Assembly (NCBI GenBank): GCA_964019135.1
Contig: OZ025253.1
Coordinates: 40,846,548-40,910,547, forward strand
Reading direction: 5' to 3'
Source: Arenicola marina
Taxonomy: Eukaryota > Annelida > Polychaeta > Arenicolidae
Length of the DNA stretch: 64,000 nucleotides
Shown in pieces: positions 3,626 through 50,255 of this stretch. The stretch's first letter is position 1; each line of letters starts with the position of its first letter. A model generated the notes under the pieces. It saw only the letters and a list, made by a program, of their open reading frames with translations, did not search any database and was not told the DNA's origin. Made by a program: the position numbers and the translations under genes.

Positions 3626-3660
3626 CTGGAAAATTAAAGATATGAAGATGAACAACTTTA

Positions 3661-4892: not shown

Positions 4893-5295
4893 TTCCCTGC
4901 CCGGTCTATGTCAGCCGCTATCTAGCAGACAAAATGACTCCCATTGCCCTGCTTGGTCTATGTCAGCCACTATCTAGCAGACAGAATGGCTTGCCCTGCT
5001 GTCTCTGGCGGTCACTATATAACGGACAGAATGACGCCCTTTCCATATAGGGTATTGCCCCTTTCAGTCCATGTCAGCTATCATATAGTCACATAATGAC
5101 TTTCCATTAATGCCGCGCTCAGTCTATGTCAGCTACTATATAGCAGACAGAATGACTTTCCATTGCCCTGCTCAGTCATATGTCAGCCAATATATGGCAG
5201 CCAGAATGACTTACCATGGCCCTCTTGATCTAGTTTAGTCAACGTAGCAGACAGAATGACTTTGCCCCACTCGGTCAATGCCAGCCACTATAAAG
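4893..5295. repeat. Degenerate ~52-58-bp tandem repeat, about 7 copies
   Basis: Repeated words GTCTATGTCAGCCACTAT and AGCAGACAGAATGACTTTCC recur at 52-58-bp spacing (for example at 4904, 4956, 5122, 5176 and 5274). Copies are diverged in sequence and length, which suggests an old array that is no longer homogenised. Confidence 0.75.
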
Positions 5296-6029
5296 AATAT
5301 TCAACAATACAGTACATGTTTGGTCTTGATGGCCAGGCACGCACAGCCCATTGGCACATGGAGTTGTCTCAGTCTGGTGATCTCTTGGTCCACTCTTGTG
5401 TCTGGGTGAGTTTGCCCACTTTAAAAATATCATTTTCCCTGTATCTAGCAATCCTATCACCACCAATGCTATTCATCAAAGTTGCCAAAACCATCTAAAG
5501 AGGAATTAAAACATGCAGGTGATACTGGGAAGGGACTAAGAACATCTGTCAGGCAGGACAGTGGCCTGAAAGGACCTAAATAGAGAGGTTACCATAAGTT
5601 ATGATCCAATGTCAAAATAAATGTCCTTTCCGACAAACTTACTACCAATGTGATGGCTGCTGCATTGTGATACATACAACTTATAACTGGACCTAAACTG
5701 ATGTGCAAATCATTCTATTCATGTTGAGTCAACCAAACAACACAGAAACATATTGAAAAGTTCATATATTTCTCTGTGGTATTTGGTCAAGATACATGTC
5801 AAGCAAGTTTTTACCATCATTTACTCACGAAAAATTATAATTTACAGCAACATCCTTAAAGTCCATCTCTTATGTCCTATGTTACTTTGCATATATTTGA
5901 TCCATTTGCACTATATTAACGAAATTCCATACGCACTGAATTTATTCGCCATGAATATTAACAATATTAGCCATTTTATCACATACCTACGCAAAAAAGT
6001 AGAAGATAGACAGGGGCAATTTTTTCATT
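5296..6029. other. Unique AT-rich DNA, possible minus-strand exon near 5,300-5,410
   Basis: Mostly anonymous AT-rich sequence. On the minus strand an acceptor-like stretch (pyrimidines then CAG near 5405) is followed by about 33 codons that read like protein (RVDQEITRLRQLHVPMGCAC) and end in a stop. I could not link this to any neighbour, so it is only a weak exon candidate. Confidence 0.2.
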
Positions 6030-7011
6030 GATTCGTGACGTCACAAGATGAACCGGTTTTGTTGCGCAATATGGCAAACGCGTCTTTGAGCATGGCGTCT
6101 ATAGGATGGTCAGCGTCCTTCCGCATCGATCGGGATGCAGCGATACGCGCACGATTATTTGGAATTAATGATAGTGAGGGTGAGAAAGAAGAAGTGGAGG
6201 ATTCAAGCAACCGGAGCATGTATTCTGCCGCCGTACGTATCGCTTCGAGCCACCTCGAATGAAGACAGATTGCTAAGCCTAAGGGACTGTAAACGTTAAA
6301 AGCCTCGAAACGCCCTACGCAAAACAGTATTTTCGGAAAAAGTGCGAATATACCATGAATTATATCATGAGATCTAGATCAAAAACCTGCAAATATGCCT
6401 TGTAATCATATAAAGTATTAATTCGGCGACCAGCAGACATATTAGTGAAAAGCTACTTAGTTGTTTGTCCCAACCGGACACCATAACGTTCGGGTGTCCA
6501 CAAGTATTACTATCAAGAGTACGCGATGAAGAGTATTGCAAGATGTGCGCTGGGTGTGTTTTTTCTCCCTTCTGTCAAATTCTGATGGGCATGAACAACT
6601 TCTTTTAGTACATACATTTCATTTAACCCTGGATCTAGATTCTATGTCTACGATTCGACGGACATCCCCGCGACGGCCCGTCCACTACTGTAGCCTAGCC
6701 CACCCTTTTCATTTTTGGGAAGAAACGTAGGCTGGCAACACACTGGCAGTGGCAGTGGCCACTGCAGCTGTTTGGTTTTTGTCAGTCAGTGTCAGTGTCA
6801 CGAATGTTGCGCTAACCAACATTCACACACCTCTAATGTAATTGATCTAGGTCTATCTACATCTACATGTGGCAAATATTCATCATGAGTTAATGTTAAC
6901 CGAAATAAACATCTGAGCTTCCCTGTCGCACGTAGGCTACATTCAAACACCGCGGGCAGTCGAAGCGAGCGAGGCGCACTCAAACCGGTTCATCTTGTGA
7001 CGTCACAAATC
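6030..7011. mobile_element. Putative MITE or fragment bounded by 30-bp inverted repeats
   Basis: The left end (6030-6059) and right end (6982-7011) are inverted copies of one 30-bp sequence with one mismatch. The inner 25 bp are identical and begin with the palindrome GTGACGTCAC followed by AAGATGAACC. The 982-bp span looks like a non-autonomous DNA element, but no target duplication is obvious. TGACGTCA is also a CRE/ATF site, so a bidirectional promoter arrangement is the alternative. Confidence 0.5.
6071..6262 (+). CDS. Small open frame inside inverted-repeat element, unknown
   Basis: An ATG-started frame of 63 codons (MANASLSMASIGWSASFRID and onwards, with an acidic GEKEEVEDSS stretch) sits just inside the left inverted repeat. 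A donor-like GTACGT near its end (about 6232) would allow it to be a first exon. I recognise no domain. It could be the 5' remnant of a transposase gene, a host first exon, or chance. Confidence 0.2.
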   Translation: MANASLSMASIGWSASFRIDRDAAIRARLFGINDSEGEKEEVEDSSNRSMYSAAVRIASSHLE

Positions 7012-8564: not shown

Positions 8565-9218
8565 TATTCAAATTGTAGCCTAGCTGTATCCTACAGTTTG
8601 ACAGTCTTACTCTCATTATGTACTATATAGTATATGTACAGTAGGCCTAGCTAAGTAGGCTGTTAACTGTAGCGTCTGAACTTAGTTGTGGCTGTCTCAT
8701 ATATGGGACTAGCCTACGGAGGGAGGAAGAGGGGGTGGAGGTCCAAATGTCTATATAAAGACCATAAGCGCCCCCCCCCCCTCACCCTATATTGCCTGTT
8801 CAAGGCAGTTAACAGGTTAATTGTTATGGATGCCGCACTGATCAGCTGATCACTGTTGATACAGTCACTGCAACTGAGTGACTGACAGGTCAAGATGTGC
8901 ACATGACATGTCAAATAAAACACCTGGACTGCCAAGTTGCAAATACCAAGCCAAATAGCCTAATAGTTTACTTACTGGTAGATCTAGTCTGTATATTCAA
9001 AGCAGGTCTTCACCTTTCAGCAGTTGAAGTAGCAATGATTCGGCGCGGCGCTCTCGAAAAGTTCCACGTCCATTCGAAACATCTCGAACAACACGCGCGG
9101 AAAACTTCACTGTTTTCCCGCTCACATACAGATATCGGTTTGAATATTCATAAGTTCAAAATATGCAAGAAAAGAGGAACCGGAAGCGCCCAAGTGGGTG
9201 TGAATTGCAAAAACGCTG
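8565..9218. other. Unique DNA with a C-run, no gene seen
   Basis: Contains CTGTTAACTGTAGCGTCTGAAC, partly similar to the neighbouring mini-element arms, and a homopolymer of about 13 C near 8770. No supportable gene. Confidence 0.4.
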
Positions 9219-9705
9219 CGTTTCACGAAGCCTTCGTAAGCTTACTTTCTTCGTATTCTGTAGATCTATGGCTGAATTCCATCGTACGAACCTTCGTACC
9301 ACATTCTTTAACGCCAGAAGTGAAAAAAATGCCACTGAGCATGTGATAAATGCAAGAGGTTTTACATGAAAACATTTAATCGAATCGAAGAAGGGCCTAA
9401 CGTAAGCTTTTGCAAAAATCTAGTGTTTTTGCCGTTCCCCGCTATGTTAATTCGTGTCATTTTGGCTCATATATTTGTGCAGATTCAACCAAAGGATTCA
9501 ACCCATTCATAATGTCCAAGGCGTCATGCGACCGTTGCTAGGAGACTCGCATTGTGACGTAATGAATATGTTGGATAGATTTTGACATTATACGTAACAT
9601 AGCAACGATTCCAGCGTTCACCGATATCGTAGACATAAATGTATGTCTTTATCAGGTACGAAGGGTGTACGATAGGGTCGAGGCACTCGTAGATGTACCA
9701 AAGAC
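9219..9705 (+). mobile_element. Dispersed element copy A (right-end sequence of the 7.57-kb element)
   Basis: From GTTTCACGAAGCCTTCGTA to about 9705 the sequence aligns along its length with 44851 to about 45,315. Shared blocks include AACGCCGGAAGTGAAA-like, AATCGAATCGAAGAAGGGCC, CATAATGTCCAAGGCGTCAT and AGGGTGTACGATAGGGTCGA. Copy A lacks the outer terminal repeat present at 45,425, so it is truncated or is a shorter derivative of the same family. Confidence 0.8.
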
Positions 9706-30902: not shown

Positions 30903-33900
30903 CAGGGCGCAGGCTGCGGCTCCGGCATGGGTTATGGGTCCTGCGTTGGACTATTGCTCCGGACGCGGGCTATGGCTATGTATGCCGGATTAATGTTCCA
31001 AGCTCCGGGTTATGGCTCAGGGCGCGGGTTGTGGCTCAGAGCGTGGGCTATGGCTCAGGGCGCGGGCTGAGGCTCAGGGCGCGGGCTATGGCTCAGGGCG
31101 CGGGCTATGGCTCAGGGCGTGGGTTGTGGCTCAGGGCGAGGGCTATGGCTCAGGGCGTGGGTTTTGGCTCAGGGCGAGGGCTGTGGCTCAGGGCGAGGGC
31201 TATGGCTCTGTATGCTGGACTATTGTTCAAGGCTCCGGGCGTGGGCTGTGGCTCAGGGCGCGGGCTGAGGCTCAGGGCGCGGGCTATGGCCTAGGGCGAG
31301 GGCTATGGCTCCGGGCGTGGGCTGTGGCTCAGGGCGTGGGCTGAGGCTCAGGGCGTGGGCTGAGGCTCAGAGCGTGGGCTATGGCTCAGGGCGTGGGCTG
31401 AGGCTCTGTATGCTGGACTATTGTTCAAGGCTCCGGGCGTGGGCTGTGGCTCAGGGCGCGGGCTGAGGCTCAGGGCGCGGGCTATGGCCTAGGGCGAGGG
31501 CTATGGCTCCGGGCGTGGGCTGTGGCTCAGGGCGTGGGCTGAGGCTCAGGGCGTGGGCTGAGGCTCAGAGCGTGGGCTATGGCTCAGGGCGTGGGCTGAG
31601 GCTCAGGGCGCGGGCTGTGGCTCAGGGCGCGGGCTGTGGCTCAGGGCGCGGGCTGTGGCTCAGGGCGCGGGCTGTGGCTCAGGTCGAGGGTTATGGTTCA
31701 GGGCGCGGGCTATGGTTCAGGACGCGGGCTGAGGCTCAGGGCGTGGGCTGAGGCTCAGGGCGTGGGATGTGGCTCAGGGCGTGGGCTGTGACTCAGGGCG
31801 CGGGCTATGGCTCAGGGCGAGGGCTATGGCTCAGGGCGAGGGCTGTGGCTCAGGGCGCGAGCTGTGGCTCAGGGCGTGGGCTATGGCTCTGGGCGAGGGC
31901 TATGTCTCAGGGCGAGGGCTATGGCTCTGTATGCTGGACTAGTGCTCTGGGCGCGGGGTATGGCTCCGGACGCGGGCTATAGCTTAGGGCGTGGGCTACG
32001 GCTCCGGGTGAGGGCTATGGCTCAGGGCGCGGGCTATGGCTCAGGGCGCGGGGTATGGCTCAGGGCGTGGGCTATGGCTCCGGACGCGGGCTATGGCCCA
32101 GGGCGAGGGCTGTGGCTCAGGGCGTGGGCTATGGCTCAGGGCGTGGGCTGTGGCTCAGGGCGTGGGCTGTGGCTCAGGGTAAAGGCTGTGGCTCAGGGCG
32201 TGGGCTATGGCTCAGGGCAAGGGCTGTGGCCCAGGGCGCGAGCTGTGGTTCAGGGCGTGGGCTATGGCACTGGGCGAGGGCTATGTCTCAGTGCGTGTGC
32301 TATGGCTCCGGACGCGGGCTATGGCTCTGTATGCTGAACTAGTGTTCCAGGCTCCAGGCGCGGGCTGTGGCTCAGGGCGTGGGCTGTGGCTCAGGGCGTG
32401 GGCTGTGGCTCAGGGCGTGGGTTTTGGCTCAGGGCGCGGGCTGTGGCTCTGGGCGAGGGCTGTGACTCAGGGCGTTGGTTGTGGCTCAGGGTGCGGGCTG
32501 TGGCTCCTAGCGCGGGCTATGGCCCAGGGCGTGGGCAATGGCTCAGGGCGAGGGCTATGGCTCAGGGCGCGGGCTATGGCTCAGGGCGCGGGTTGTGGCT
32601 CAGGGTGTGGGCTGTGGTTCAGGGCGAGGGCTATGGCTCAGGGCACGGGCTATGGCTCAGGGCGCGGGCTATGGCTCAGGGCGAGGGCTATGGCTCAGGG
32701 CGCTGGTTGTGGCTCAGGGTGTGGGCTATGGCTCAGGGCGTGGGCTATGGCTCAGGGCGAGGGCTGTGGCTCAGGGCGAGGGCTATGACTCAGGGTGCGG
32801 GCTGTGGCTGCTAGCGCGGGCTATGGCTCAGGGCGTGGGCTATGGCTCAGGGCGTGGGCTATGGCTCAGGGCGCAGGCTATGGCCCAGGGCGTGGGCAAT
32901 GGCTCAGGGCGAGGGCTATGGCTCAGGGCGAGGGCTGTGGCTCAGGGCGAGAGCTGTGGCTCAGGGCGTGGGCTGTGGCTCAGGGCGCGGGCTATGGCCC
33001 AGGGCGTGGGATGTGGCTCAGGGCGTGGGCTGTGGCTCAGGGCGTGGGCTGTGGCTCAGGGCGAGGGCTATAGCTCAGGGCGAGGGCAGTGGCTCAGGGC
33101 GAGGGCTGTGGCTCCTAGCGCGGGCTATGGCTCAGGGCGAGGGCTGTGGCTCAGGGCGAGGGTGTGACTCAGGGTGCGGGCTGTGGCTCCTAGCGCGGGC
33201 TATGGCTCAGGGCGCGGGCTATGGCTCAGGGCGTGGGCTGTGGCTCAGGGCGTGGGCTGTGGCTCAGGGCGAGGGCTGTGGCTCAGGGGGCGAGCTGTGG
33301 TTCAGGGCGTGGGCTATGGCACTGGGCGAGGGCTATGTCTCAGTGCGAGGGCTATGGCTCAGGGCGCGGGCTATGGTTCAGGGCGCGGGCTGTGACTCAG
33401 GGCGCGGGCTATGGCTCAGGGCGCGGGCTGAGGCTCAGGGCGTGGGCTGTGGCTCAGGGCGTGGGCTGTGGCTCAGGGCGTGGGCTGTGGCTCAGGGCGT
33501 TGGTTGTGGCTCAGGGCGCGGGCTGAGGCTCAGGGCGCGGGCTGAGGCTCAGGGCGTGGGCTGTGGCTCAGGGCGTGGGCTGTGGCTCAGGGTAAAGGCT
33601 GTGGCTCAGGGCGTGGGCTATGGCTCAGGGCGAGGGTTGTGGCTCAGGGCGCGAGCTGTGGTTCAGGGCGTGGGCTATGGTTCAGGGCGCGGGCTATGGC
33701 TCAGGGACCGGGCTGTGGCTCCGGGCGCGTTCTATGGCCCAGGGCGTGTGCTATGGCTCCGGACGCGGGCTATGGCTCTGTATGCTGAACTAGTGTTCCA
33801 GGCTCCAGGCTCGGGCTGTGGCTCAGGGCGTGGGCTGTGGCTCAGGGCGTGGGCTATGGCTCAGGGCGCGGGCTGTGGCTCAGGGCGAGGGCTGTGGCTC

Positions 33901-36900
33901 AGGGCGTGGGCTGTGGCTCAGGGCGCGGGCTATGGCCCAGGGCGTGGGATGTGGCTCAGGGCGTGGGCTGTGGCTCAGGGCGTGGGCTGTGGCTCAGGGC
34001 GAGGGCTATAGCTCAGGGCGAGGGCAGTGGCTCAGGGCGAGGGCTGTGGCTCCTAGCGCGGGCTATGGCTCAGGGCGAGGGCTGTGGCTCAGGGCGAGGG
34101 TGTGACTCAGGGTGCGGGCTGTGGCTCCTAGCGCGGGCTATGGCTCAGGGCGCGGGCTATGGCTCAGGGCGTGGGCTGTGGCTCAGGGCGTGGGCTGTGG
34201 CTCAGGGCGAGGGCTGTGGCTCAGGGGGCGAGCTGTGGTTCAGGGCGTGGGCTATGGCACTGGGCGAGGGCTATGTCTCAGTGCGAGGGCTATGGCTCAG
34301 GGCGCGGGCTATGGTTCAGGGCGCGGGCTGTGACTCAGGGCGCGGGCTATGGCTCAGGGCGCGGGCTGAGGCTCAGGGCGTGGGCTGTGGCTCAGGGCGT
34401 GGGCTGTGGCTCAGGGCGTGGGCTGTGGCTCAGGGCGTTGGTTGTGGCTCAGGGCGCGGGCTGAGGCTCAGGGCGCGGGCTGAGGCTCAGGGCGTGGGCT
34501 ATGGCACTGGGCGAGGGCTATGTCTCAGTGCGAGGGCTATGGCTCAGGGCGCGGGCTATGGTTCAGGGCGCGGGCTGTGACTCAGGGCGCGGGCTATGGC
34601 TCAGGGCGCGGGCTGAGGCTCAGGGCGTGGGCTATGGCTCAGGGCGTGGGCTGTGGCTCAGGGCGTGGGCTGTGGCTCAGGGTAAAGGCTGTGGCTCAGG
34701 GCGTGGGCTATGGCTCAGGGCGAGGGTTGTGGCTCAGGGCGCGAGCTGTGGTTCAGGGCGTGGGCTATGGTTCAGGGCGCGGGCTATGGCTCAGGGACCG
34801 GGCTGTGGCTCCGGGCGCGTTCTATGGCCAAGGGCGTGTGCTATGGCTCCGGACGCGGGCTATGGCTCTGTATGCTGAACTAGTGTTCCAGGCTCCAGGC
34901 TCGGGCTGTGGCTCAGGGCGTGGGCTGTGGCTCAGGGCGCGGGCTATGGCTCAGGGCGCGGGCTATGGCTCAGGGCGTGGGCTGTGGCTCAGGGCGTGGG
35001 CTGTGGCTCAGGGCGTGGGTTTTGGCTCAGGGCGCGGGCTGTGGCTCTGGGCGAGGGCTGTGACTCAGGGCGTTGGTTGTGGCTCAGGGTGCGGGCTGTG
35101 GCTCATAGCGCGGGCTATGGCCCAGGGCGTGGGCAATGGCTCAGGGCGAGGGCTATGGCTCAGGGCGCGGGCTATGGCTCAGGGCGCGGGTTGTGGCTCA
35201 GGGTGTGGGCTGTGGTTCAGGGCGAGGGCTATGGCTAAGGGCACGGGCTATGGCTCAGGGCGCGGCCTATGGCCCAGGGCGTGGGCTATGGCTCAGGGCG
35301 AGGGCTGTGGCTCAGGGCGAGGGCTATGACTCAGGGTGCGGGCTGTGGCTGCTAGCGCGGGCTATGGCTCAGGGCGTGGGCTATGGCTCAAGGCGTGGGC
35401 TATGGCTCAGGGCGCGGGCTATGGCCCAGGGCGTGGGCAATGGCTCAGGGCGAGGGCTATGGCTCAGGGCGAGGGCTGTGGCTCAGGGCGAGAGCTGTGG
35501 CTCAGGGCGTGGGCTGTGGCTCAGGGCGCGGGCTATGGCCCAGGGCGTGGGACGTGGCTCAGGGCGTGGGCTGTGGCTCAGGGCGTGGGCTGTGGCTCAG
35601 GGCGAGGGCTATAGCTCAGGGCGAGGGCTGTGGCTCAGGGCGAGGGCTGTGGCTCCTAGCGCGGGCTATGGCTCAGGGCGAGGGCTGTGGCTCAGGGCGA
35701 GGGTGTGACTCAGGGTGCGGGCTGTGGCTCCTAGCGCGGGCTATGGCTCAGGGCGCGGGCTATGGCTCAGGGCGTGGGCTGTGGCTCAGGGCGTGGGCTG
35801 TGGCTCAGGGCGTGGGTTTTGGCTCAGGGCGCGGGCTGCGGCTCAGGGCGAGGGCTGTGGCTCAGGGCGTGGGCTGTGGCTCAGGGCGAGGGCTGTGGCT
35901 CAGGGCGCGAGCTATGTCTCAGGGCGAGGGCTATGGCTCAGGGCGCGGGCTATGGCTTAGGCCGTGGGCTATGGCTCCTGACGCGGGCTATGGCTCTGTA
36001 TGCTGGACTAGTGCTCTGGGCGCGGGGTATGGCTCCGGACGCGGGCTATGACTCAAGGCGCGGGCTATAGCTTAGGGCGTGGGCTACGGCTCCGGGTGAG
36101 GGCTATGGCTCAGGGCGCGGGCTATGGCTCAGGGCGCGGGGTATGGCTCAGGGCGTGGGCTATGGCTCCGGACGCGGGCTATGGCCAAGGGCGAGGGCTG
36201 TGGCTCAGGGCGTGGGCTATGGCTCAGGGCGTGGGCTGTGGCTCAGGGCGTGGGCTGTGGCTCAGGGTAAAGGCTGTGGCTCAGGGCGTGGGCTATGGCT
36301 CAGGGCGTGGGCTGTGGCTCAGGGCGCGAGCTGTGGTTCAGGGCGTGGGCTATGGCACTGGGCGAGGGCTATGTCTCAGTGCGAGGGCTATGGCTCAGGG
36401 CGCGGGCTATGGTTCAGGGCGCGGGCTGTGGCTCAGGGCGTGGGCTGAGGCTCAGGGCGCGGGCTGAGGCTCAGGGCGTGGGCTGTGGCTCAGGGCGTGG
36501 GCTGTGGCTCAGGGCGTGGGCTGTGGCTCTGAGCGAGGGCTATGTCAGTGCGAGGGCTATGGCTCAGGGCGCGGGCTATGGTTCAGGGCGTGGGCTATGG
36601 CTCAGTGCCCGGGCTGTGGCTCAGGGCGTGGGCTATGGCTCAGGGCGCGGGCTATGGCTCAGGGCGCGGGCTATGGCTCAGGGCGCGGGCTGAGGCTCAG
36701 GGCGTGGGCTGTGGCTCAGGGCGTGGGCTGAGGCTCAGGGCGTGGGCTGTGGCTCAGGGCGCGAGCTGTGGTTCAGGGCGTGAGCTATGGCTCTGAGCGA
36801 GGGCTATGTCAGTGCGAGGGCTATGGCTCAGGGCGCGGGCTATGGTTCAGGGCGTGGGCTATGGCTCAGTGCCCGGGCTGTGGCTCAGGGCGTGGGCTGA

Positions 36901-37853
36901 GGCTCAGGGCGTGGGCTGTGGCTCAGGGCGCGAGCTGTGGTTCAGGGCGTGGGCTTTGGCTCTGAGCGAGGGCTATGTCTCAGGGCGCGGGCTATGGTTC
37001 AGGGCGCGAGCTATGGCTCAGGGACTCAGGGACTGTGGCTCAGGGCCCACGCCCTGAGCCACAGCCCACGCCCTGAGCCTGAGCTGAGGCTCAGGGCGCG
37101 GGCTGAGGCTCAGGGCAAGGGCTGTGGCCCAGGGCGCGAGCTGTGGTTCAGGGCGTGGGCTATGGCTAAGGGCACGGGCTATGGCTCAGGGCGCGGGCTA
37201 TGGCCCAGGGCGTGGGCTATGGCTCAGGGCGAGGGCTATGGTTCAGGCGCGGGCTATGGCTCAGGGTAAAGGTTGTGGCTCAGGGCGTGGGCTATGGCTC
37301 AGGGCAAGGGCTGTGGCCCAGGGCGCGAGCTGTGGTTCAGGGCGTGGGCTATGGCACTGGGCGAGGGCTATGTCTCAGTGAGAGGGCTATGGCTCAGGGC
37401 GCGGGCTATGGTTCAGGGCGCGGGCTATGGCTCAGGGCGCGGGCTGAGGCTCAGGGCGCGGGCTGAGGCTCAGGGCGTGGGCTGTGGCTCAGGGCGTGGG
37501 CTGTGGCTCAGGGTAAAGGCTGTGGCTCAGGGCGTGAGCTATGGCTCAGGGCGAGGGCTGTGGCTCAGGGCGCGAGCTGTGGTTCAGGGCGTGGGCTATG
37601 GCTCAGGGCGCGGGCTATGGTTCAGGGCGTGGGCTATGGCTCAGGGCGCGGGCTGAGGCTCAGGGCGCGGGCTGAGGCTCAGGGCGTGGGCTGTGGCTCA
37701 GGGCGTGGGCTGAGGCTCAGGGCGCGGGCTGAGGCTCAGGGCGTGGGCTGTGGCTCAGGGCGTGGGCTGTGGCTCAGGGCGCGGGCTGAGGCTCAGGGCG
37801 TGGGCTGTGGCTCAGGGCGTGGGCTGTGGCTCAGGGCGTGGGCTGTGGCTCAG
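30903..37853 (+). repeat. 19-bp minisatellite, left block, about 365 units
   Basis: Unit GGGCTATGGCTCAGGGCGC with variants (CTGTGG, GGCGTG, GGCGAG). A divergent unit with TCTGTATGCTGGACTAGT and GTTCCAGGCTCC recurs as punctuation (31,203, 31,405, 31,926, 32,328, 33,777, 34,866, 35,996). Internal duplications are visible: 33,174-33,526 repeats at +938 bp, and 32,386-33,073 repeats at about +2,541 bp. Arginine/leucine- and glycine-rich open frames in this block are composition effects. Confidence 0.95.
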
Positions 37854-37890
37854 GGGCCAGTTTCACCTTCAACATAAGAGCTGGCCAAAG

Positions 37891-38345
37891 TCAAAGAATA
37901 GCCAAAACCAACATAACGAGCATACAACAAACATGCAACAGAAGGATAACATTGGACAGGAACACAACATAGCAGGACGGCTGTCTCACCAGCAACAACT
38001 GAAACAGTACAGCGAATGCGACCGCATCCTCGTTTTCGCTGGCAGAGATCCGTGCACTGAACGCATTGCACTGCTGAAGAAGAACGTTGAAATCCACGAC
38101 GTCCCAGGAGAGTGACTTGAGTTTGTCTTGGGACGCCGACTTGGAAGCAACCTGAGTCTGGAAGACTCTGGTGGCCACGTGAAGTCCTTCATCCAACTCC
38201 TTGGCATCCTCTTGTAGTTGGCTTCTAAACTTGCTGAGGTTTGCAGCGTATGCCATCTGGTCACCCTCTTTGGACAATGTGATGAGGAGTTTCTGGCGTT
38301 TCTCGTATCTCTCCCTCAGTCGTTCTAGTTCACCATCCCCAAGTC
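37891..38345 (-). pseudogene. Frame-shifted 3' continuation of the SANT-like gene
   Basis: Beyond the in-frame TAG, another minus frame carries clearly protein-like, highly helical sequence for about 145 codons (GELERLRERYEKRQKLLITL, then LSKFRSQLQEDAKELDEGLH and SWDVVDFNVLLQQCNAFSAR). The frames can be connected by a one-base length difference in the G4 run at 38,337-38,340, so a homopolymer error or a recent frameshift is likely. The last ~28 residues are strongly hydrophobic (CYVVFLSNVILLLHVCCMLV), which could be a membrane anchor or simply translated non-coding DNA. The stop at 37,891 is only 37 bp from the element's left end. Confidence 0.55.
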
Positions 38346-41300
38346 TTCATCCCCATTCCACACACCTTTCTGGGTCTCCTGTAGGCCAGATTTAAGGTCC
38401 GTCGCATCCGCACATATCCAAAAGCGCCCTTCCGGATTTGCAGTTCGCAATGTCTTCAGGATTGACATCTACAAGGGCATATTGAGTCACAACATTCCCC
38501 AAATCCATTTACACAATACAGCGAGCCATAAAGACCAGACTGCATCGCAAATAAATCAGAGGAAGATATTATGTCTTCTTCGCACTATGTATGAAATATA
38601 TATCTTCACTAAAACACTGTGGAGATCCCGCATGTCGTTACTAGCGATAGAGCACAGCCGAGAGACAAACACACAACCGAGAGACTACGAGACCGACGAC
38701 AACGGAAGTGTCGTGCTTTTAACACAAAGTCAAAAGCATTGAAACAATTGCATCCCAAAATGCAAGAATATACGTACTAACAACATACGTGAGATACAAA
38801 CTGCGACTAATTAGTGAAATTTATCACCTGAACAACCGGCTCGGTTGAGACTGGAAGATCATCTTTCGCCAGGGATTTGTTTAACGTCTGCAAGCTGACG
38901 CTGGCAACATTTACGCGAGCCTCCAGGGGCCTCCCGAAGGTTTCTTGGGGTTGCCCACTCCACATAGGCCCACGAAGTATGCGAAATTGACGACTGTACA
39001 GTTCAGATGACATGGTCTCGAGCCAAGTCATGAAGTCACTTGGCATCTCGATCTGAAAAAGACATAGTAACTTGTATGCAGGAAGATATTGCAATTAAGA
39101 TTAGGGTGCTGGCCATTAAGGGTTACAAAAGTCACACCAGCGACGATGGCATAAATATTACCAGGTGTTCATTAAATTTTAACAACATCTATAATTATGA
39201 TATTACATTTTTATTTCTGATTTCTATTAAATTCATACTTTCTTTCTACATGAAGATGGCGCAGGCGCAAGACGCCAAGATAGTTGTTCATCTAATACAT
39301 GTATGTATATCATATATATATAGTAATAATATAATATAATCATAGATTATTTATATAATGATACATATTTGTCACAATTCGTCCGGAATAACAAGAAAAT
39401 CAATTCAAAGTAAATATAACATACGCATGCATAAACACAGACATGGCCACAGAAGGGCTCGAACCATCGATCCACGTGCCGTTAGGCTCTCAGGTGGCCA
39501 GGGCACTCAATACGAGCGCTCTAGCCCACTGAGCTATCGCGCCGGCCCCTGTAATACGTTGTCAATGTATTCAATGAATGAATGATTAAGGTAGTAACAA
39601 AAACTAGTGGGGAAAAATGCAACCAAACTCTAATACAATAATGAAATGCAACACAAATCCGGAACTCCTGGACATCTGGCACTAGTACCTGACAGATATG
39701 AGTAGACGAGAAGAACTCTATCTGATACTGGATGAGGCCAAATGGCATCCGCTCTAGGGGCATCAGAGAAGTTTCTGACCCTGGTCTCTTGGCACCAATG
39801 CAGTGAGCAAACTTGCTCACTAGATATGGATTCTTTCCAACCTGTTTCAAAGCTAACATGGCTTCGAGTGACATGGATGCATATTTAGGTAAATTTCCAA
39901 AACCATGGAGCCCGAATGAAGTGTGGAGAATTTTGTCTAAGAGGGGTATGACAAGGTTCAACTGCGTCATTTTGTCAGTGGGAAAGAAAGCAAATAATTT
40001 GATTATGAAGGAAGCAAGCTCGTCCGAAAGCAGATGCGAAAGACTATCTAGAAGGGCCTGAATTATGGTTTCTTTTGGCAGCACCTTGAGTACATGATGA
40101 AACAAATTGGCTAGTTCTTTGGGGCTAAGGCTGTTTGGATTGGAGGGTTTTGAGGCCGGACTTGAACCGCCACAACTACTACCATCCAGGTAGCTCTCCA
40201 CCGTCACACCCAAGGCATCCTCTGCTTCATTGACAGATGCATATAGCGCCCGTAGCTTTCCGACTTTGGAACGCACAGCACTGGCTGGGAGTAAAATAAG
40301 TACACAAAATATGTGACATCACGTTGTGGCGCATTGGCAATTAGTATGAATTGGCCACCTAATTACAACAAAAACAATAATATGGAACACATATAGGTAT
40401 GTTTAAGAATCCCTCTTCATTTGATACGAAACGCCTTTTCCAGTCACAAGTCCATTTCATCAGCTAGACTAAATAACTTAGACTAGATTAGTAGGAATGT
40501 AACCTCAGCAAATCACACATTTTTCATAAAATTTAGTTCAATTAAGACGTCATGGTGAATTAATTATATGCTTAACAAAAGACAACACCACCTGACATAA
40601 TTACGTGGTCATTTTTAACTTCTTCAAACTGTGAGAGACATGTTTCATACATTGGCTTTCAAGGGAGCTGGGTGATGCCGGCTATCATAAGGATATATAC
40701 TGCAAAATCATACCTAGTCCGCGACTGGAACCATATTGGAGCGGACTGCGTTACATCTATCATGTCTATGGAACAATGTCATACCTTGCCTGCATGTCTT
40801 AGCGCCAGAAGCTTGCTGAACTTCGCCAGCAATCCGGCTCCAAAATGTCTGATCCTTGTATGAGGGCCAATCAGGCTGATCAGGGTTCTCCATCTTGCCA
40901 AGGGCCAAAGCTTGCACGAGGCAACAAACTTCTTTGTGGGACCATGGCGTATTCTTTGTCTTTCCCCTCTGGGAGACCGGAGACTGAGGCAATCGGATGG
41001 GTGAGAAGGCTCTCCTCAATATTCTTCTTGCAGCCTGAAAATTTAACAAACTTTTATGGCCGGTCAGAGACAATGGTATATACAGTGACATATGTTGACA
41101 GATGTGCATCAGATAGCTGGATCGGTAATGTTATCATAGTAGAATTTTTTTTCTCACTAAATTGGATAATTCCTAGTGTTCTGAAAGGAGATTACAGTAA
41201 AGTCATGTTGTCAAAAAAATCAAAAATCTTATAATGCTTATTTTTTAAAAGAGGCTATAGACTCACATGTTAATTACCTACCCAGCATATATGCTTACCC

Positions 41301-41391
41301 GCTTTGCCTTATATATAGGCGTGGAAGTAACCGAAAATGTTCTCTTGCGAGGTAATGCAGTCTTTGAGGTGGATGCTCCATTGCTATCCAT
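38325..41391 (-). CDS. Five-exon SANT/Myb-like DNA-binding protein gene
   Basis: Minus-strand exons are 41391-41299 (from ATG), 41034-40785, 40284-39689, 39052-38828 and 38468 onward. All introns are GT...AG and phases match (0, 1, 0, 0), which strongly supports a real gene. An acceptor at 41398-41397 implies a 5' untranslated exon upstream. The spliced product is 435 residues to the first stop at 38325. Exon 1 ends with a basic stretch (PRKR) that may be a nuclear signal. Residues 60-125 form a SANT/trihelix-like domain: NTPWSHKEVCCLVQALALG, then QTFWSRIAGEVQQASGAK, then CRQASAVRSKVGKLR. Residues 160-310 are a helical region I do not recognise (NLFHHVLKVLPKETIIQALL onwards). In Harbinger elements such a protein recruits the transposase to DNA; that role is inferred from context. 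A host gene captured or hit by repeats is the alternative. Confidence 0.7.
39440..39550 (-). mobile_element. tRNA-derived SINE head in intron 3
   Basis: On the minus strand GCGCGATAGCTCAGTGGGC holds a near-perfect pol III A box (39,536-39,525) and GGTTCGAGCCC a B box (about 39,466-39,456), roughly 65 nt apart. The cloverleaf is not clean and the DNA sits in an intron between exons 3 and 4, so a SINE is more likely than a working tRNA gene. The 3' tail boundary is not clear. Confidence 0.7.
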
Positions 41392-41396
41392 GATAA

Positions 41397-43213
41397 CTGG
41401 AAAATAAGAACATCATGTAAAATGTAAAATGTAGTTCAGGGAAGAAATAGACAAGTACACTGGCCCTATACTACCCAATGGTAGCTAGGTGTTTGGAATG
41501 GAATGGTTTGGAATTGTTCGGTGTTTGGAATGGAATGGTTTGGCTTACTGTTGCAGAAATAAGCCATGAAAAAAATTAGATATGTTATAGATATTGGAAT
41601 ATATATTATATGATAGATTAATTGTCCACTTTTCCCCCTGATATTTTGTTCTTGCGTGATCAAAGAAGTGTTTCACAATATTGTTTTACAGTTACTGGTA
41701 CATTATTACCACATTATTTTGGCTCATTTAAATTTGATACATCCAATGAACATATATAGCCCTTCCATGAACACAAATTATAAAGACAAGAATTAACACA
41801 ATGAGTTCACTCAAATAGAATTTCACCTTTAATTATCAACTAAAAAATATATTTAGCAATTCAACTTGAATGACATGTACTGTAATTAAATCTAGATATA
41901 ATTTACTGGATCTAGACATTTAATGAATGTCACTGGATATGGACATAGTTCATTTACAACATGATCAAATATCTTTTTCTAATTACCCACAGTTCGCTCT
42001 ATAAGATACCACATTTAATTTGCATGGTTACACTTACAGAAGAGAATAGCCTAAACATGTCAACCATAATGATTGTAAAGGGAAAAGCCCCTTGCCTTGG
42101 GTAGATTGGCAAAAGATAAGATAGAGTTAAATTATCCTGTCAGTCAATTTGTCTTCTTCATAATGGCTTTATACTCTAGCTACCGCTGGATGTGTAAATC
42201 TAACTATGTAAACATGTTATAAACGACAATATAGCTCCTACAAATATAGATCTAAGACTTATATATACTTACTCCCTTACTATATAGATCACTGTGTGTA
42301 AGCTAGTGTAACTGTAACTTGTAAGTGTGACACTGCATTAGCCTTTTTTAGGCATACATATTTCGCAGATCTAGTTAATCCGGTTCATTCATTAACCTGG
42401 AACTTGACAGGTGATAACGTTAGATTCAATACCATGAATCTGATTAGCTTTGTCCTACAAAACGCTGACACGTAGCCGTAGGCATACCTGCTTATCAGAA
42501 GGCGTTTTTGTTGACAAAGTTAAGCAGGGGCAAGCCACAGGCACCGTGAAGGGGGGAGGCCGTGGCGGGGGGGGGGGGGTAGGGGGCCCCACAACGTGTG
42601 TTTAGGGCGTTGTGGGGCCCCCTACCCCCCCCCCCTCCACTGATTTACTGTGCCTGTGGCAGTGTGGGGCAAGCCATATATGACAGTATGAGATTGACAT
42701 CAATGGCAATGGCCAAAGCATATCATCAGATCATATGATGATTAAGCCTATGACTAGCAGACTAGCTGTGATCTCTCCAGCGTTAGAATGCTATAGCCTA
42801 GCCTATGACATGTCGATAAAAGACGATATGACCACTATCCTGGCTTGACATGACAACATCGATCGATCCACAAGCCAAGTGACACAACGAACGAGAACGT
42901 CAAGCGTAGCTTGAGGAGGAGACGAAAATCTGGGGTTAAGTCCAACTGGAATATATATATATATAGTGCCGACTATGTACATGCATTGCTGACAGAGTAT
43001 AGGCCGAAATGTCCGCGCGCCGTCAGTCATTTGGCGTATCGAAGCTTTATAATGGGATCGGCCATGTTAAATGTCTTTGTTTTTTTGCGTGCAAAGCACT
43101 CGTCTGATTTGAAAGGCATTTGGCACACATGATGTCAGTAATATTGATACCTATTCCACGACATAAAGGATGTCTATCTGCATTTATTTAGGCACAGCGA
43201 TTTTTCTCCATTT
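41397..43213. other. AT-rich DNA, probable 5' intron of the SANT-like gene
   Basis: Unique AT-rich sequence with no recognisable exon. A 31-bp word containing TTTGGAATGGAATGGTTTGG occurs twice at about 41,490 and 41,521. No DDE transposase-like frame was found here on either strand. Confidence 0.4.
42527..42675. mobile_element. Foldback element with long G/C stem and 10-bp flanking repeat
   Basis: The stem arms end CCCCACAACG (42,596) and begin CGTTGTGGGG (42,608), with G-rich and C-rich tracts continuing the pairing for about 28-30 bp. An outer pair GCCACAGGCAC / GTGCCTGTGGC closes it. GGGGCAAGCC occurs at 42,527 and again at 42,666, which could be a 9-10-bp target duplication. This looks like a small foldback or MULE-type MITE. 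Confidence 0.6.
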
Positions 43214-44245
43214 TTATTCAGGTCAAATTTAACCATCCAATAGCTCGAAACCTATAAATGTGAGGTGAAATCTGAGACCACATTTCTTTTGTGCCTCTCT
43301 CAGAAGAATACCGTGAGACAACCCGCGGATCTCTGGAGCCAATATTAACGGAGCTACGAAGAAAAACAAAATTCGTGACCTTGACCTTGTTGTGACCTTG
43401 ACCTTGGAAGAGTGACCTTGATCAATATAGTGCTTTGGCCCAAATACTAATGTCATGTCTCACGCAAGGTGTCGTTTGTCTGACATGTCCCCTTCATGGA
43501 GAAATTGGGGAGCCCATTTTCCCACCAAAATGCTCCCGTAGGGTCCTATGTTAAACTTTGGGAATTTTTAGCAGGAAAACTATTTGGGCGATTTGCATAA
43601 ATAAAAGACGATATAGAAGGTACTAATGGGCCCAATACGTGAAATAATTGGCAGCGTAATTAAATGGAAACTGCGAATGTTATAGCGATTTTTCCGTTTT
43701 TTGGTCCTATCTTTCAATGGTTAAGCGAAATTCGAAAAATTCCTGCGACCTTGACCTTTGACCTACACGGCCCATCTACAAAGTTGGCCTGACGGTGGGC
43801 TGTGGCATTGTCTGTGCAGAAGGCGGAGTCGATATCTGAAACTTTATAAAAAAAAAAAAAAAATCCAAAATTTGCAATTTTCAAGAGGCTGTGACGCGAA
43901 AACTTTTCACCATACGTCAAATCTGATGTCAGTGGCGCGAAAGAGTTTGAGGAGCTGAGTATTTTGACACTAGTTGCGGCTCTCTAACTGCAATATTAAG
44001 AGAGCTAGAGCGAAAATGTGTTTTGGACGTATGACGTCATCGTGACCTTGACCTTTGAGTTATATTGCCCATTCACGAACTTGACCTGTCGATTGGCTGT
44101 CGGAATGTTTTGGTAAAAGAAGAGAACGATATCTTTAGGTATTCGACAGATAATGCGTCTACAGACAGACAGACAGACAGACACACAGACAGACAGACAG
44201 ACAAACCGAACACACCGACATAAGACGAAAATCGTAGATTTTCAT
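43214..44245. repeat. GACCTTGACC-rich dispersed-type repeat
   Basis: Clusters of TGACCTTGACCTT at 43,378-43,425, 43,745-43,764 and 44,041-44,058 sit in conserved-looking surroundings, with an A15 run at 43,847 and a terminal (ACAG)n tract. The layout resembles an unclassified interspersed element, but only one copy is in the window. Confidence 0.4.
44162..44204 (+). repeat. (ACAG)n microsatellite
   Basis: About ten tetranucleotide units with one interruption. Confidence 0.95.
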
Positions 44246-44778
44246 CTTAATAAAGACCGCGAAACTTCCTTAAAAATAAACCAAGACGACGACTGACACA
44301 TCACAGCGTTAACCGATGGCTTATTTGCAAAAATCGGCTGAATATTGATCACAAAATTCGGCTCATACCTCAATACATCATGGGGATCTTTGGGGATCTT
44401 TGAACATTTTGTGCAGACGACATCTGAACCTTGAATTGGGTACATGTCGGATGTTGTTCTTGCCTCTTTTTGGTAAAAATTTGCATATTCAAAGTTTGTC
44501 AACAGACACGTGAGGTCGGATTACTTTTTTGTGAAGCCGTTTTGCACCAATAATAATATTTTTTTCTAATGTCTCAAATTCGATGTTTTTCAATGCCAAA
44601 TTTGTAAAGACTCTTCAACTGTGTATGCATATCATCATTCTTATCATTTAAGCAAAGTAAATGGCAAATAAATCAATTTCTTTTCAGTGATTTTCTCCAA
44701 AATATGGCGCGAAAATTACACGTGTGCATGCCGGCATGTAAACATTTTGCACACGGCACGCCTTGCGATCCTCCTTAA
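44246..44778. other. Unique AT-rich DNA
   Basis: No gene or repeat recognised between the GACCTTGACC repeat and the terminal inverted-repeat block. Confidence 0.35.
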
Positions 44779-45425
44779 GTTTCACCAAGCCTTCGTACCG
44801 TACGTTACACGTGGCCCATATACGAAGGTTTGTACGAGAACTGTACGTGCGTTTCACGAAGCCTTCGTACCTCCTTCGTATTTTGTATGGCTAAAGCCCA
44901 TCGTACGAACCTTCGTACCATATTTTTTAACGCCGGAAGTGAAAGAAGTATGAATATGCATGTTATAAATGCATGACATTTTCCATGAAAACATTTAATC
45001 GAATCGAAGAAGGGCCTTTGACGTAAGCTTTTGCATAAATCTAGTGTTTTTGCCGTTGCCAACAATAATAATTCGCGTCATTTTTGTATATAATGTGTGC
45101 AGTGTCAAGCTATTCATAATGTCCAAGGCGTCATGCGACCGTTGCTAGGATACTCGCATTGTGACGTTTTGAATATGTGGGATGGATTTTGACCTTATAA
45201 GTAACGTAGCATCTAGCAACGATTCCAACTTTCACAGATACCGTAAACAGAAATGATGCTGGCACGAAGGGTGTACGATAGGGTCGAGGCACTTGTAATG
45301 TACGAAGGAACCTACGATGTATCTTATGTTAATTAGAGGTACGAAGGCTTCGTGAAACCGGATTTACGGGTCACAATCTTCGTACGAAGGTTCGTACACG
45401 TACGAAGGCTTTGTGAAACTGGCCC
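44779..45425 (+). mobile_element. Right end of the 7.57-kb element / dispersed element copy B with nested inverted repeats
   Basis: An inner pair, GTTTCACGAAGCCTTCGTAC at 44,851 and its complement ending at 45,358, bounds 508 bp. An outer related pair (TTTCACCAAGCCTTCGTAC at 44,780 and its partner ending at 45,425) surrounds it. The inner 465 bp match copy A at 9,219-9,705. It may be a MITE of the same family, or the complex subterminal repeat of the large element. Confidence 0.75.
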
Positions 45426-45428
45426 CAG

Positions 45429-47640
45429 TGCGCTGGCTGTGGCTTAGGGCGCGGAGTATGGCTCAGGGCGAGGGCTGTGGCTCAGGGTGTGGGCTGTGGC
45501 TCAGGGCGTGGCCTCTGGCTCAGGGCGAGGGCTATGGCTCAGGGTGTGGGCTGTAGCTCAGGGCGTGGCCTCTGGCTCAGGGCGAGGGCTATGGCTCAGG
45601 GTGTGGGATGTGGTTCAGGGCGTGGGCTATGGCTCAGAGCGTGGGCTATGGCTCAGGGCGCGGGCTATGGATCAGGGCGTGGGCTATGGCTCAGGGCGCG
45701 CGTTATGGCTCAGGGCGTGGGCTGTGGCTCAGTGTGTGTGCTGTGGCTCAGGGCGTGGGCTATGGCTCAGGGCGAGGTATGTGGCTCAGGGCGAGTGCTG
45801 TGGCTCAGGGCGTGGGCTACGGCTCAGGGCGTGGGCTATGGCTCAGGGCGAGAGCTGTGGCTCCGGGCGCGGGCTATGGCTCCGGACGCGAGATATGGCT
45901 CTGTATGCTTGACTAGTATTCCAGGCTCCGGACGTGGGCTGTGGCTCAGGGCGTGGGCTGTGGCTCAGGGCGAGGGCTATGGCTCTGGGCGATGGCTATG
46001 GCTCAGGGCGAGGGCTGAGGCTCAGAGCGTGGGCTATGGCTCAGGGCAAGGGCTGTGGCTCAGGGCAAGGGCTGTGGCTCGGGACGCGGGCTGTGGCTCA
46101 GGGCGTGGGCTGTGGCTCAGGGCGAGGGCTGTTGCTTAGGGCAAGGGCTATGGCTCAGGGCGCGGGCTATGGCTCAGGGTGTGGGTTATGGCTCCTGACG
46201 CGGGCTATGGCTCTGTATGCTGGACTAGTGCTCTGGGCGCGGGGTATGGTTCCGGACGCAGGCGCGGGCTATGGCCCAGGGCGTGGGCTACGGCTCCGGG
46301 TTTTGGGCTATGGCTCAGGGCGCGGAGTATGGCTCAGGGCGCGGGCTATGGCTCAGGGCGTGGGCTATGGCTCAGGGCGTGGGCTATGGCTCCGGGTGAG
46401 TGCTATGGCTCAGGGCGCGGGCTATGGCTCAGGGCGCGGGGTATGGCTCAGGGCGCGGGCCATGGCTCAGGGCGCGGGCTATGGCTCAGGGCGTGGGCTA
46501 TGGCTCTGGGTGGGTGCTATGGCTCAGGGCGCGGGCTATGGCTCAGGGCGTGGGCTGTGGCTCAGGGCATGGGCTATGGCTCCGGGTGAGGGCTATGGCT
46601 CAGGGCGCGGGGTATGGCTCAGGGCGCGGGGTATGGCTCAGGGCGTGGGCTATGGCTCCTGACGCGTGCTATGGCTCTGTATGCTGGACTAGTGCTCTGG
46701 GCGCGGGGTATGGTTCCGGACGCAGGCTACGACTCAAGGCGCGGGCTATGGCCCAGGGCGTGGGCTACGGCTCCGGGTTTTGGGCTATGGCTCAGGGCGC
46801 GGAGTATGGCTCAGGGCGCGGGCTATGGCTCAGGGCGTGGGCTACGGCTCAGGGCGTGGGCTATGGCTCCGGGTGAGTGCTATGGCTCAGGGCGCGGGCT
46901 ATGGCTCAGGGCGTGGGGTATGGCTCAGGGCGCGGGCCATGGCTCAGGGCGCGGGCTATGGCTCAGGGCGTGGGCTATGGCTCCGGGTGGGTGCTATGGC
47001 TCAGGGCGCGGGCTATGGCTCAGGGCGTGGGCTGTGGCTCAGGGCATGGGCTATGGCTCCGGGTGAGGGCTATGGCTCAGGGCGCGGGGTATGGCTCAGG
47101 GCGCGGGGTATGGCTCAGGGCGCGGGGTATGGCTCAGGGCGCGGGGTATGGCTCAGGGCGTGGGCTATGGCTCCGGACGCGGGCCATGGCTCTGTATGCT
47201 GGACTAGTGTTCCGGGCCCGGGCTATGGCTCAAGGCGCGGACTATGGCTCAGGGCGTGGGCTGTGGCTCAGGGCATGGGCTATGGCTCCGGGTGGGTGCT
47301 ATGGCTCAGGGCGCGGGCTATGGCTCAGGGCGTGGGCTGTGGCTCAGGGCATGGGCTATGGCTCCGGGTGAGGGCTATGGCTCAGGGCGCGGGGTATGGC
47401 TCAGGGCGCGGGGTATGGCTCAGGGCGCGGGGTATGGCTCAGGGCGTGGGCTATGGCTCCGGACGCGGGCCATGGCTCTGTATGCTGGACTAGTGTTCCG
47501 GGCCCGGGCTATGGCTCAAGGCGCAGGCTACGGCTCAGGGCGGGGGCCATGGCTCTGGGTGTGGGCTACGGCTCAGGGTGTGGGCTATGGCTCAAGGGGC
47601 TGGTTCTGTGCGTTGGAATAATGTTCCAGGCTCCGGTCGC
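45429..47640 (+). repeat. 19-bp minisatellite, right block, about 116 units
   Basis: Same monomer (GGGCTATGGCTCAGGGCGC) and same punctuation unit (TCTGTATGCTGGACTAGT at 46,211, 46,677, 47,193, 47,479) as the block at 30.9-37.85 kb. It begins directly at the right edge of the 7.57-kb insertion, so the two blocks were once continuous. A stretch from about 46,180 is duplicated near 46,650. Confidence 0.95.
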
Positions 47641-50255
47641 CGGACCGTGGCTCCAGACTATGCCTCCGGACGCGGACTATGCCTCCGGACGCGGACTATG
47701 CCTTCGGACGCGGACTATGCCTCCGGACGCAGGCTATGCCTCCGGACGCGGACTATGCCTCCTGACGCGGACTATGCCTCCGGACGCGGACTATGCCTCC
47801 GGACGCAGGCTATGCCTCCTGATCCAGGCTATGCCTCCGGACGCGGACTATGCTTCCGGACGCGGACTATGCCTGCGGACGCGGACTATGCCTCCGGACG
47901 CAGGCTATGCCTCCGGACGCGGACTATGCTTCCGGACGCGGACTATGCCTGCGGACGCGGACTATGCCTCCTGACGCAGGCTATACCTCCGGACGCAGGC
48001 GATGCCTCCGGACGCAGGCTATGCCTCCAGACGCGGACTATGCCTCCGGACGCGGACTATGCCTCCTGACGCAGGCTATACCTCCGGACGCAGGCTATGC
48101 CTCCGGACGCAGGCTATGCCTCCAGACGCAGGCTATGCCTCCGGACGCGGACTATGCCTCCGGACGCGGACTATGCCTCCGGACGCAGGCTATGCCTCCT
48201 GACGCAGGCTATACCTCCGGACGCAGGCTATGCCTCCGGACGCAGGCTATGCCTCCGGACGCGGACTATGCCTCCGGACGCGGACTATGCCTCCGGACGC
48301 GGACTATGCCTCCGGACGCGGACTATGCCTCCGGACGCGGACTATGCCTCCGGACGCGGACTATGCCTCCGGACGCGGACTATGCCTCCGGACGCAGGCT
48401 ATGCCTCCGGACGCGGACTATGCCTCCGGACGCGGACTATGCCTCCGGACGCGGACTATGCCTCCGGACGCAGGCTATGCCTCCGGACGCGGACTATGCC
48501 TCCGGACGCGGACTGTGCCTCCTGACGCGGACTATGCCTCCGGACGCAGGCTATGCCTCCGGACGCGGACTATGCCTCCGGACGCAGGCTATGCCTCCGG
48601 ACGCGGACTATGCCTCCGGACGCGGACTATGCCTCCTGACGCGGACTATGCCTCCGGACGCAGGCTATGCCTCCGGACGCGGACTATGCCTCCGGACGCA
48701 GGCTATGCCTCCGGACGCGGACTATGCCTCCGGACGCGGACTATGCTTCCGGACGCGGACTATGCTTCCGGACGCGGACTATGCATCCGGACGCGGACTA
48801 TGCCTCCGGACGCAGGCTATGCCTCCGGACGCGGACTATGCCTCCGGACGCGGACTATGCTTCCGGACGCGGACTATGCTTCCGGACGCGGACTATGCTT
48901 CCGGACGCGGACTATGCTTCCGGACGCAGGCTATGCCTCCGGACGCAGGCAATGCCTCCTGATCCAGGCTATGCCTCCGGACGCGGACTATGCCTCCGGA
49001 CGCAGGCTATGCCTCCTGATCCAGGCTATGCCTTCGGACGCGGACTACGCCACCTGACGCAGGCTATGCCTCCAGACGCGGACTATGCCTCCGGACGCAG
49101 GCTATGCCTCCGGACGCGGACTATGCCTCCGGACGCAGGCTATGCCTCCGGACGCGGACTATGCCTCCGGACGCGGACTATGCCTCCGGACGCAGGCTAT
49201 GCCTCCGGACGCGGACTATGCCTCCGGACGCAGGCTATGCCTCCGGACGCGGACTATGCCTCCGGACGCAGGCTATGCCTCCGGACGCAGGCTATGCCTC
49301 CGGACGCGGACTATGCCTCCGGACGCAGGCTATGCCTCCGGACGCGGACTATGCCTCCGGACGCAGGCTATGCCTCCGGACGCGGACTATGCCTCCACAC
49401 GCAGGCTATGCCTCCGGACGCAGGCTATGCCTCCGGACGCGGACTATGCCTCCGGACGCGGACTATGCCTCCGGACGCAGGCTATGCCTTCGGACGCGGA
49501 CTATGCCTCCGGACGCAGGCTATGCCTCCGGACGCAGGCTATACCTCCGGACGCGGACTATGCCTCCTGATCCAGGCTATGCTTCCGGACGCGGACTATG
49601 CCACCGGACGCGGACTATGCCTCCGGACGCGGACTATGCCTCCGGACGCAGGCTATGCCTTCGGACGCGGACTATGCCTCCGGACGCAGGCTATGCCTCC
49701 GGACGCGGACTATGCCTCCGGACGCAGACTATGCCTCCGGACGCAGGCTATGCCTCCAGGCGCGGACTATGCCTCCGGACGCAGGCTATGCCTTCAGACG
49801 CGGACTATGCCTCCGGACGCAGGCTATGCTTCCGGACGCGGACTATGCCTCCGGACGCGGACTATGCCTCCGGACGCAGGCTATGCCTCCGGACGCAGGC
49901 TATGCCTCCGGACGCAGGATTTGCATCCGGACGCGGGATATGTCTCCGGCCGCGGACTATGCCTCCGGACGCGGACTATGCCTCCGGACGCGGACTATGC
50001 CTCCGGACGCAGGCTATGCCTCCGGACGCGGACTATGCTTCCGGACGCAGGCTATGCCTCCGGACGCAGGCTATGCCTCCGGACGCGGACTATGCCTCCG
50101 GACGCGGACTATGCCTCCGGACGCAGGCTATGCCTCCGGACGCAGGATTTGCATCCGGACGCGGGATATGTCTCCGGCCGCGGGATATGCCTCCGGACGC
50201 GGGATATGCCTCCGGACGCACGCTATGCCTTCGGACGCAGGCTATGGCTGTGGGC
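47641..50255 (+). repeat. Derived 19-bp minisatellite, about 137 units
   Basis: Unit GGACTATGCCTCCGGACGC or GGCTATGCCTCCGGACGCA. It aligns in register with the minority unit GGGCTATGGCTCCGGACGC of the neighbouring block, differing at two positions, so it is a homogenised daughter array. The plus-strand frames repeat words such as RTRTMPPDADYASGRGLCL and are not genes. Confidence 0.95.

Follow-up and report, generated by a model that had tools for sequence, protein, structure and literature searches.

A split MITE holding a copy of a locus from another contig, in a 19-bp minisatellite of Arenicola marina

Does a pair of terminal inverted repeats (TIRs) with a target-site duplication (TSD) mean that the kilobases between them moved as a transposon? 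This question is raised by a 64,000-nucleotide stretch of the Arenicola marina genome (assembly GCA_964019135.1, contig OZ025253.1, positions 40,846,548 to 40,910,547 of the forward strand; the whole stretch is hereafter called the window), in which a 19-bp minisatellite is interrupted by a 7.57-kb insert. A preliminary description took the insert for one large element with 13-bp TIRs, some copies of which might carry a DDE_Tnp_4 gene. Sequence comparison identifies its outer parts as one 656-bp miniature inverted-repeat transposable element (MITE) of a multi-copy family, split in the left TIR by a filler whose donor locus, on another contig (C1), both junctions and nested repeat can be recognised. 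We consider it likely, with a probability of about 0.75, that the filler arose by templated filling, in place, of a break in an older MITE, which would make it a single-copy Pack-TIR of unusual size, with a source on another contig and a break at the tip of the element.

The insertion site and the MITE family

A single exact occurrence of the 13-bp motif GGGCCAGTTTCAC is found on each strand of the window, at 37854 on the plus and at 45413 on the minus strand; both lie at edges of the array interruption, and the reverse complement at 45413-45425 closes the insert. The site comprises the following features:

31013-37853, plus strand: 19-bp minisatellite, left part (Tandem Repeats Finder (TRF) row 31013-37855, period 19)
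37851-37853: CAG target-site duplication, left copy (from the sequence and the register test)
45426-45428: CAG target-site duplication, right copy (from the sequence)
45429-50249, plus strand: 19-bp minisatellite, right part (TRF rows)

The array, with the unit TGGCTCAGGGCGCGGGCTG, starts at 31013, resumes past the interruption and ends at 50249. In a register test, deletion of 37854-45428 (the insert and one CAG) left both halves of the array in one 19-bp phase (phase 8), in which the left half matches the unit at 94% and the right half at 86%, against 55% and 52% in the next-best phases. Because the halves share a phase after this deletion, a 3-bp duplication explains the site exactly, and on the inverted motif at both edges, the CAG duplication and the restored array the preliminary description was right. 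More than half of the window from 12715 to 64000 is covered by adjoining unrelated minisatellites (74-, 88-, 21-, 19-, 83-, 20- and 34-bp units).

All genome searches covered the window's own assembly (867 Mb, 762 contigs). The 13-bp motif is far commoner than by chance, with 317 occurrences against 11 for a reversed control; preceded by CWG it occurs 252 times against 1, and the longer pattern CWGGGGCCAGTTTCACRAANC 108 times against 0. The excess of the forward motif is partly due to a 22-bp satellite on contig C9, whose units, as seen in one locus (L090), do not match CWGGGGCCAGTTTCACRAANC. This satellite (G000:C9:23383060 onwards) has a unit of about CCAGGGG(C/T)CAGTTTCACGGAGA that includes the same 17 nt as CAG plus the start of the MITE TIR, and it was possibly seeded by a transposon end together with its target duplication.

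With 44777-45425 as query (best 40 of 245 candidates scored), at least 49 genome matches were found, including at least 23 other full-length copies with 88-93% identity. Twenty aligned copies gave a 656-bp consensus that starts GGGCCAGTTTCACGAAACC; they diverge from it by 1.1-5.7%, and the window copy by 3.6% (23 of 642 sites, 16 of them private). These twenty are partly non-independent, since L084, L087 and L088 have common flanks, as do L082 and L089. Eleven are flanked by the same CWG on both sides and one by ATG on both sides, while eight have different or eroded ends. Among 100 of the 108 listed ends, 25 facing pairs less than 12 kb apart were obtained (unpaired ends and one pair of about 20 kb were excluded), 11 of which span 620-665 bp. 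The same CWG stands on both sides in 20 of the 25; as the pattern itself required CWG, about half of the pairs are expected to agree by chance. Other copies bounded by the same ends with CWG, as the preliminary description anticipated, are thus present in the genome. The family TIR, GGGCCAGTTTCACGAA(A/G)CCTTCGTAC, is about 26 nt long and begins with GGG.

These ends match those of NuwaI transposons, a group of PHIS (Harbinger-like) elements described as having a CWG target duplication and TIRs of 12-61 bp that start with GGG (PMC4482050): the insert is flanked by CAG on both sides, and its family TIR starts with GGG and has a length within that range. NuwaI elements are reported to be moved by a DDE transposase and a Myb/SANT protein (PMC4482050), whereas the family described here is non-autonomous, and no transposase or Myb gene linked to its TIR was found. 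DDE_Tnp_4 domains are common in this genome (at least 150 matches), yet the DDE_Tnp_4 gene suspected for the element was found neither in seven open reading frames (ORFs) of the insert nor at the insert among the 150 matches listed. None of these 150 lies within 20 kb of any of the 109 TIR places listed, the nearest being about 22 kb away, and inverted CWG-GGG ends were absent from the 1.5-kb flanks of all 30 DDE loci inspected. At three of the 30 (L050, L066 and L068) a CAG-flanked end, GGGATCGTTTCAC / GGGATCGTTTCACTAAG, occurs nearby, pointing away from the DDE_Tnp_4 gene, and possibly represents a related TIR family. An autonomous 7.6-kb Harbinger element was considered and rejected, as no Pfam family scored above cut-off in the seven chosen ORFs of the insert or in eight of the donor region; names scoring below threshold were few (best E 0.0049, DUF2408) and were disregarded.

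Several members of the family carry inserts of their own. Among the longer TIR pairs, L069, L070, L071 and the third MITE within L008 are MITEs with inserts, none of which matches the filler of the window. Two of them were considered as possible further captures. In L070 a high-copy repeat makes up more than half of the insert. L071 (C3:13956700-13958560) is a form whose insert of about 1.06 kb contains a widespread repeat of about 500 bp and is flanked on either side by about 11 nt of MITE; since this form has matches at four loci, larger forms of the family may have multiplied. A candidate sister copy of the window's insert, C4:9570284-9578136, was rejected, being a MITE split by an insert of about 1.16 kb and a 6-kb stretch containing ORFs, with no match to the filler; by eye, these ORFs resemble retrotransposon reverse transcriptase. 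An older, end-less copy of the same MITE lies within the window at 9217-9704 (79% identity over 497 bp).

The split MITE, its junctions and the donor locus

Compared with the MITE copies and with C1, the insert resolves into four consecutive parts:

37854-37864, plus strand: MITE nt 1-11 (GGGCCAGTTTC), from comparison of the junction with the donor and 20 MITE copies
37865-44776, minus strand (C1 plus strand corresponds to window minus strand): filler, read as a captured copy of G000:C1:22140140-22145942 with later changes and a nested repeat (blastn)
44777: one extra A at the right junction, in neither the donor nor the MITE consensus (comparison with the donor and the MITE copies)
44778-45425, plus strand: MITE nt 6-656 with the right TIR intact (88-93% identical to at least 23 other full-length matches; 3.6% from consensus)

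At the left junction the MITE sequence GGGCCAGTTTC is followed by ACC, common to the window MITE (AGTTTCACCAAG) and the donor (GAACCTTC), and then by donor sequence; because other MITE copies have G at the third base, the shared stretch amounts to 2 or 3 bp (AC(C)). At the right junction the donor sequence ..CCTCCTT is followed by the single A and then by AGTTTCACC.., that is, MITE nt 6 onward. The right MITE part thus starts 5 nt inside the TIR, and 22 of the 23 other full-length matches align from that base. TIR nt 6-11 (up to 14) are therefore present on both sides of the filler, a duplication of 6-9 bp. In structure, the insert is a single MITE split in its left TIR, and not an element with two ends of its own. 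The proposed TIR length of 13 bp can be refined, as left of the filler only nt 1-11 and the 2-3 nt shared with the donor belong to the MITE.

The donor covers insert positions 12-6923 in reverse orientation, except about 5037-6398, in three main blastn pieces with 94-98% identity and one short piece with 89%. Two genome searches, one with the whole insert (best 40 of 6248 candidates scored) and one with 37865-42880 alone (best 40 of 2333), yielded the C1 locus as the only other locus covering the filler among the candidates scored; the other matches listed lie in the nested repeat, in a 115-bp repeat or in a short inverted stretch rich in G. Neither search found a third copy of the filler or a second composite with these ends. 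Past both donor edges, C1 carries sequence unrelated to the window, and neither the MITE of this family nor its TIR was found at those edges. Outside 42500-44251, which holds the nested repeat and a low-complexity stretch, 108 of 5116 aligned sites (2.1%) distinguish the filler from the donor. The filler measures 6912 bp and the donor 5803 bp (119%, nested repeat included), and 5544 sites align. As to the edges, the preliminary description was correct: both are ends of a single transposon family, accompanied by a CAG duplication. That the 7.57 kb form one large element is not supported. The body matches a single donor locus elsewhere, and the two genome searches found no second copy of it bounded by these ends, so that for the body the refuting observation named in the preliminary description has essentially been made.

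Origin of the composite

We propose that the first event was the transposition of a 656-bp non-autonomous NuwaI-type MITE into the 19-bp minisatellite, with duplication of CAG. A later break or stalled fork in the left TIR, between nt 6 and nt 14, would have been repaired with about 5.8 kb copied from the C1 locus on another contig, joined on the left through 2-3 bp of microhomology (ACC) and on the right with one extra nucleotide, so that 6-9 bp of TIR came to lie on both sides. The filler would then have decayed (indels, a frameshift, a lost splice donor) and gained a 1.36-kb repeat. The direction of copying, from C1 to the window's contig (C6), is strongly supported, because MITE parts bound the filler while the donor runs on into its own surroundings. 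We infer that the capture took place after the MITE had inserted, through break repair or template switching, and likewise the order of the later changes. If half of the 2.1% divergence arose on the filler side, the MITE would be older than the filler (Fisher p=0.006), and standing donor polymorphism in that divergence would make the capture younger still.

We file this case as a Pack-TIR-like capture in a NuwaI-type MITE. Pack-TIRs were surveyed in 100 animal genomes by Tan et al. (2021, PMC8277862), whose authors attribute the single-copy ones mostly to transposition-independent gap filling. As in their cases, a TIR element is interrupted by the copy of a unique parental locus, the composite is single-copy and the parent lacks the element; at least 10 bp of element terminus remain on each side (here 11 nt left and 648 nt right), one donor accounts for the unique-sequence parts, and the ratio of interior to parent length, 119%, falls within their 80-120% (PMC8277862). 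The short junction microhomology is also shared, here at one of two junctions; 67.6% of published cases show it at one breakpoint or both, with a median of 2 bp (PMC8277862). Unlike those cases, the filler measures 5.8 kb (6.9 kb with the nested repeat) and its parent lies on another contig, and the break falls in the terminal TIR with a 6-9-bp duplication in place of a gap; among the 281 cases analysed in the survey, 59.8% have their parent on the same chromosome, 56.9% lie within 15 kb of it, and breakpoints are skewed inwards (PMC8277862). The interior of 6912 bp exceeds the 5,000-bp limit of that screen, which is a screening cut-off and not biology. hAT and TcMariner elements make up 87.2% of 370 cases, and the word Harbinger is absent from the main text of the survey (PMC8277862). 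Plant Pack-TYPE/Pack-PIF elements are likewise of Harbinger-PIF type with gene fragments, but the study describing them dropped singletons and reported clusters of related copies, whereas ours is single (PMC8903248). The class 2 templated sequence insertions of the human genome are similar in that a double-strand break is patched by a copy of a distant locus, and differ in that the break here is in a transposon tip (PMC5110952). A narrow literature search found no paper on gene capture in Harbinger MITEs of molluscs, from which we claim no wider absence from print.

Could the composite (TIR of 11-13 bp, filler and MITE) instead have arisen elsewhere and entered the array by transposition as a whole, as the preliminary description supposed? 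We consider this unlikely. It has a TIR at each end and CAG on each side, the array register is restored, larger MITE forms seem to have moved, and the TIRs published for NuwaI go down to 12 bp (PMC4482050). On the other hand, a single copy of the composite was found in the two genome searches, its left end lacks the subterminal sequence common to MITE copies beyond about nt 14, and the MITE part looks older than the filler, given evenly split divergence. A model in which two neighbouring MITEs flanked the C1 segment and co-mobilised it, in the way that neighbouring TIRs are modelled to act in plant Pack-TYPE elements (PMC8903248), would account for one near-complete MITE and one TIR stub; we hold it to be very improbable, as neither donor edge has a MITE or TIR, and on its left the filler abuts TIR nt 11-14 and not a MITE end. 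There is equally little chance that the filler is itself a transposon or retrocopy that inserted in the TIR with an 8-9-bp duplication: AGTTTC(ACC) is indeed present on both its sides, but it is colinear with genomic DNA, stretches between open frames included, has no poly-A at either end and, by eye, no inverted or Helitron-like ends, and was found in two copies in all, with the donor extending past both edges. An assembly chimera of two loci in this repeat-rich region is extremely improbable in view of the 2.1% divergence, the 209-bp difference from C1, the small indels, the nested repeat absent from the donor and the exact array register.

Several points weigh against filling in place. Were all of the divergence on the filler side, the age difference would vanish (p=0.56). 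The parent on another contig and the terminal breakpoint are unlike most published Pack-TIR cases. The outer TSD would be identical had the composite moved as a unit, and larger MITE forms seem mobile (the form with an insert of about 1.06 kb at four loci). The family's TSDs are imperfect, with 5 of 25 pairs disagreeing and 8 of 20 aligned copies different or eroded. A chimeric assembly is a further, if extremely improbable, possibility.

As to what made the break, it is a rather remote suggestion that a NuwaI transposase cut the TIR tip (a staggered cut, giving the 6-9-bp duplication) and that the gap was filled from another chromosome. If true, the unit keeps both TIRs and its CWG flanks and could in principle carry more than 5 kb of gene sequence, a route to very large Pack elements for animal Harbinger-type MITEs. 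With filling in place as the favoured reading, donor and both junctions can be named for a capture in a CWG-type Harbinger-like MITE, and a likely sequence of events can be given. The capture is larger than the cut-off of the published animal screen allows; screens limited to 5 kb would miss captures of such size. It also answers our opening question, in that a TIR pair and target duplication around kilobases are no proof that those kilobases moved as a transposon.

Gene content and repeats of the filler

Four open frames of the donor and two repeats can be recognised in the filler:

37894-38468, minus strand: captured donor open frame, broken by a 1-base deletion; GT at an apparent splice donor lost (near 38000)
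38810-39094, minus strand: captured 95-aa open reading frame, still open
39436-39551: multi-locus repeat of about 115 bp, resembling by eye the head of a short interspersed element (SINE) (genome searches and donor comparison)
39524-40318, minus strand: captured 265-aa open frame, 99% identical to the donor
40662-41108, minus strand: captured donor open frame, broken by 7- and 2-base insertions
42890-44254, plus strand: nested high-copy 1.36-kb repeat that the donor lacks, with an ACAG microsatellite and a 3' hairpin

The 267-aa donor frame has ten further matches besides donor and filler, with 28-52% identity and five of them without internal stops, which indicates a multigene family. Further open frames occur on the same strand beyond the left donor edge, and we infer that they and the donor frames belong to one gene. 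The gene content of the filler looks like a decaying fragment. The low divergence of the 265-aa frame counts against simple decay: apart from a 6-base deletion, 3 of its 795 sites differ from the donor, compared with 105 of 4321 over the remainder of the filler (p=2e-5). Constraint on the donor alone would predict about 10 filler changes in this frame (3 or fewer: p=0.013). We think that old donor polymorphism, as part of the total, most easily explains the low value; selection on the filler is also possible.

About 209 bp of C1 next to the repeat of about 115 bp are absent from the filler, through deletion here or insertion in C1. The nested repeat accounts for 58 of the 70 match rows listed for the whole-insert search, its long matches having 78-97% identity, and because the donor lacks it, it was inserted after the capture or was present in a donor allele not assembled. 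An ACAG microsatellite and a 3' hairpin are described as features of Helentron-type elements (PMC4067079), which the repeat resembles, an assignment made by eye. At 42569-42635 of the window, a perfect inverted repeat with 28-bp arms encloses a loop of 11 nt; the G-rich stretch around it diverges strongly between filler and donor.

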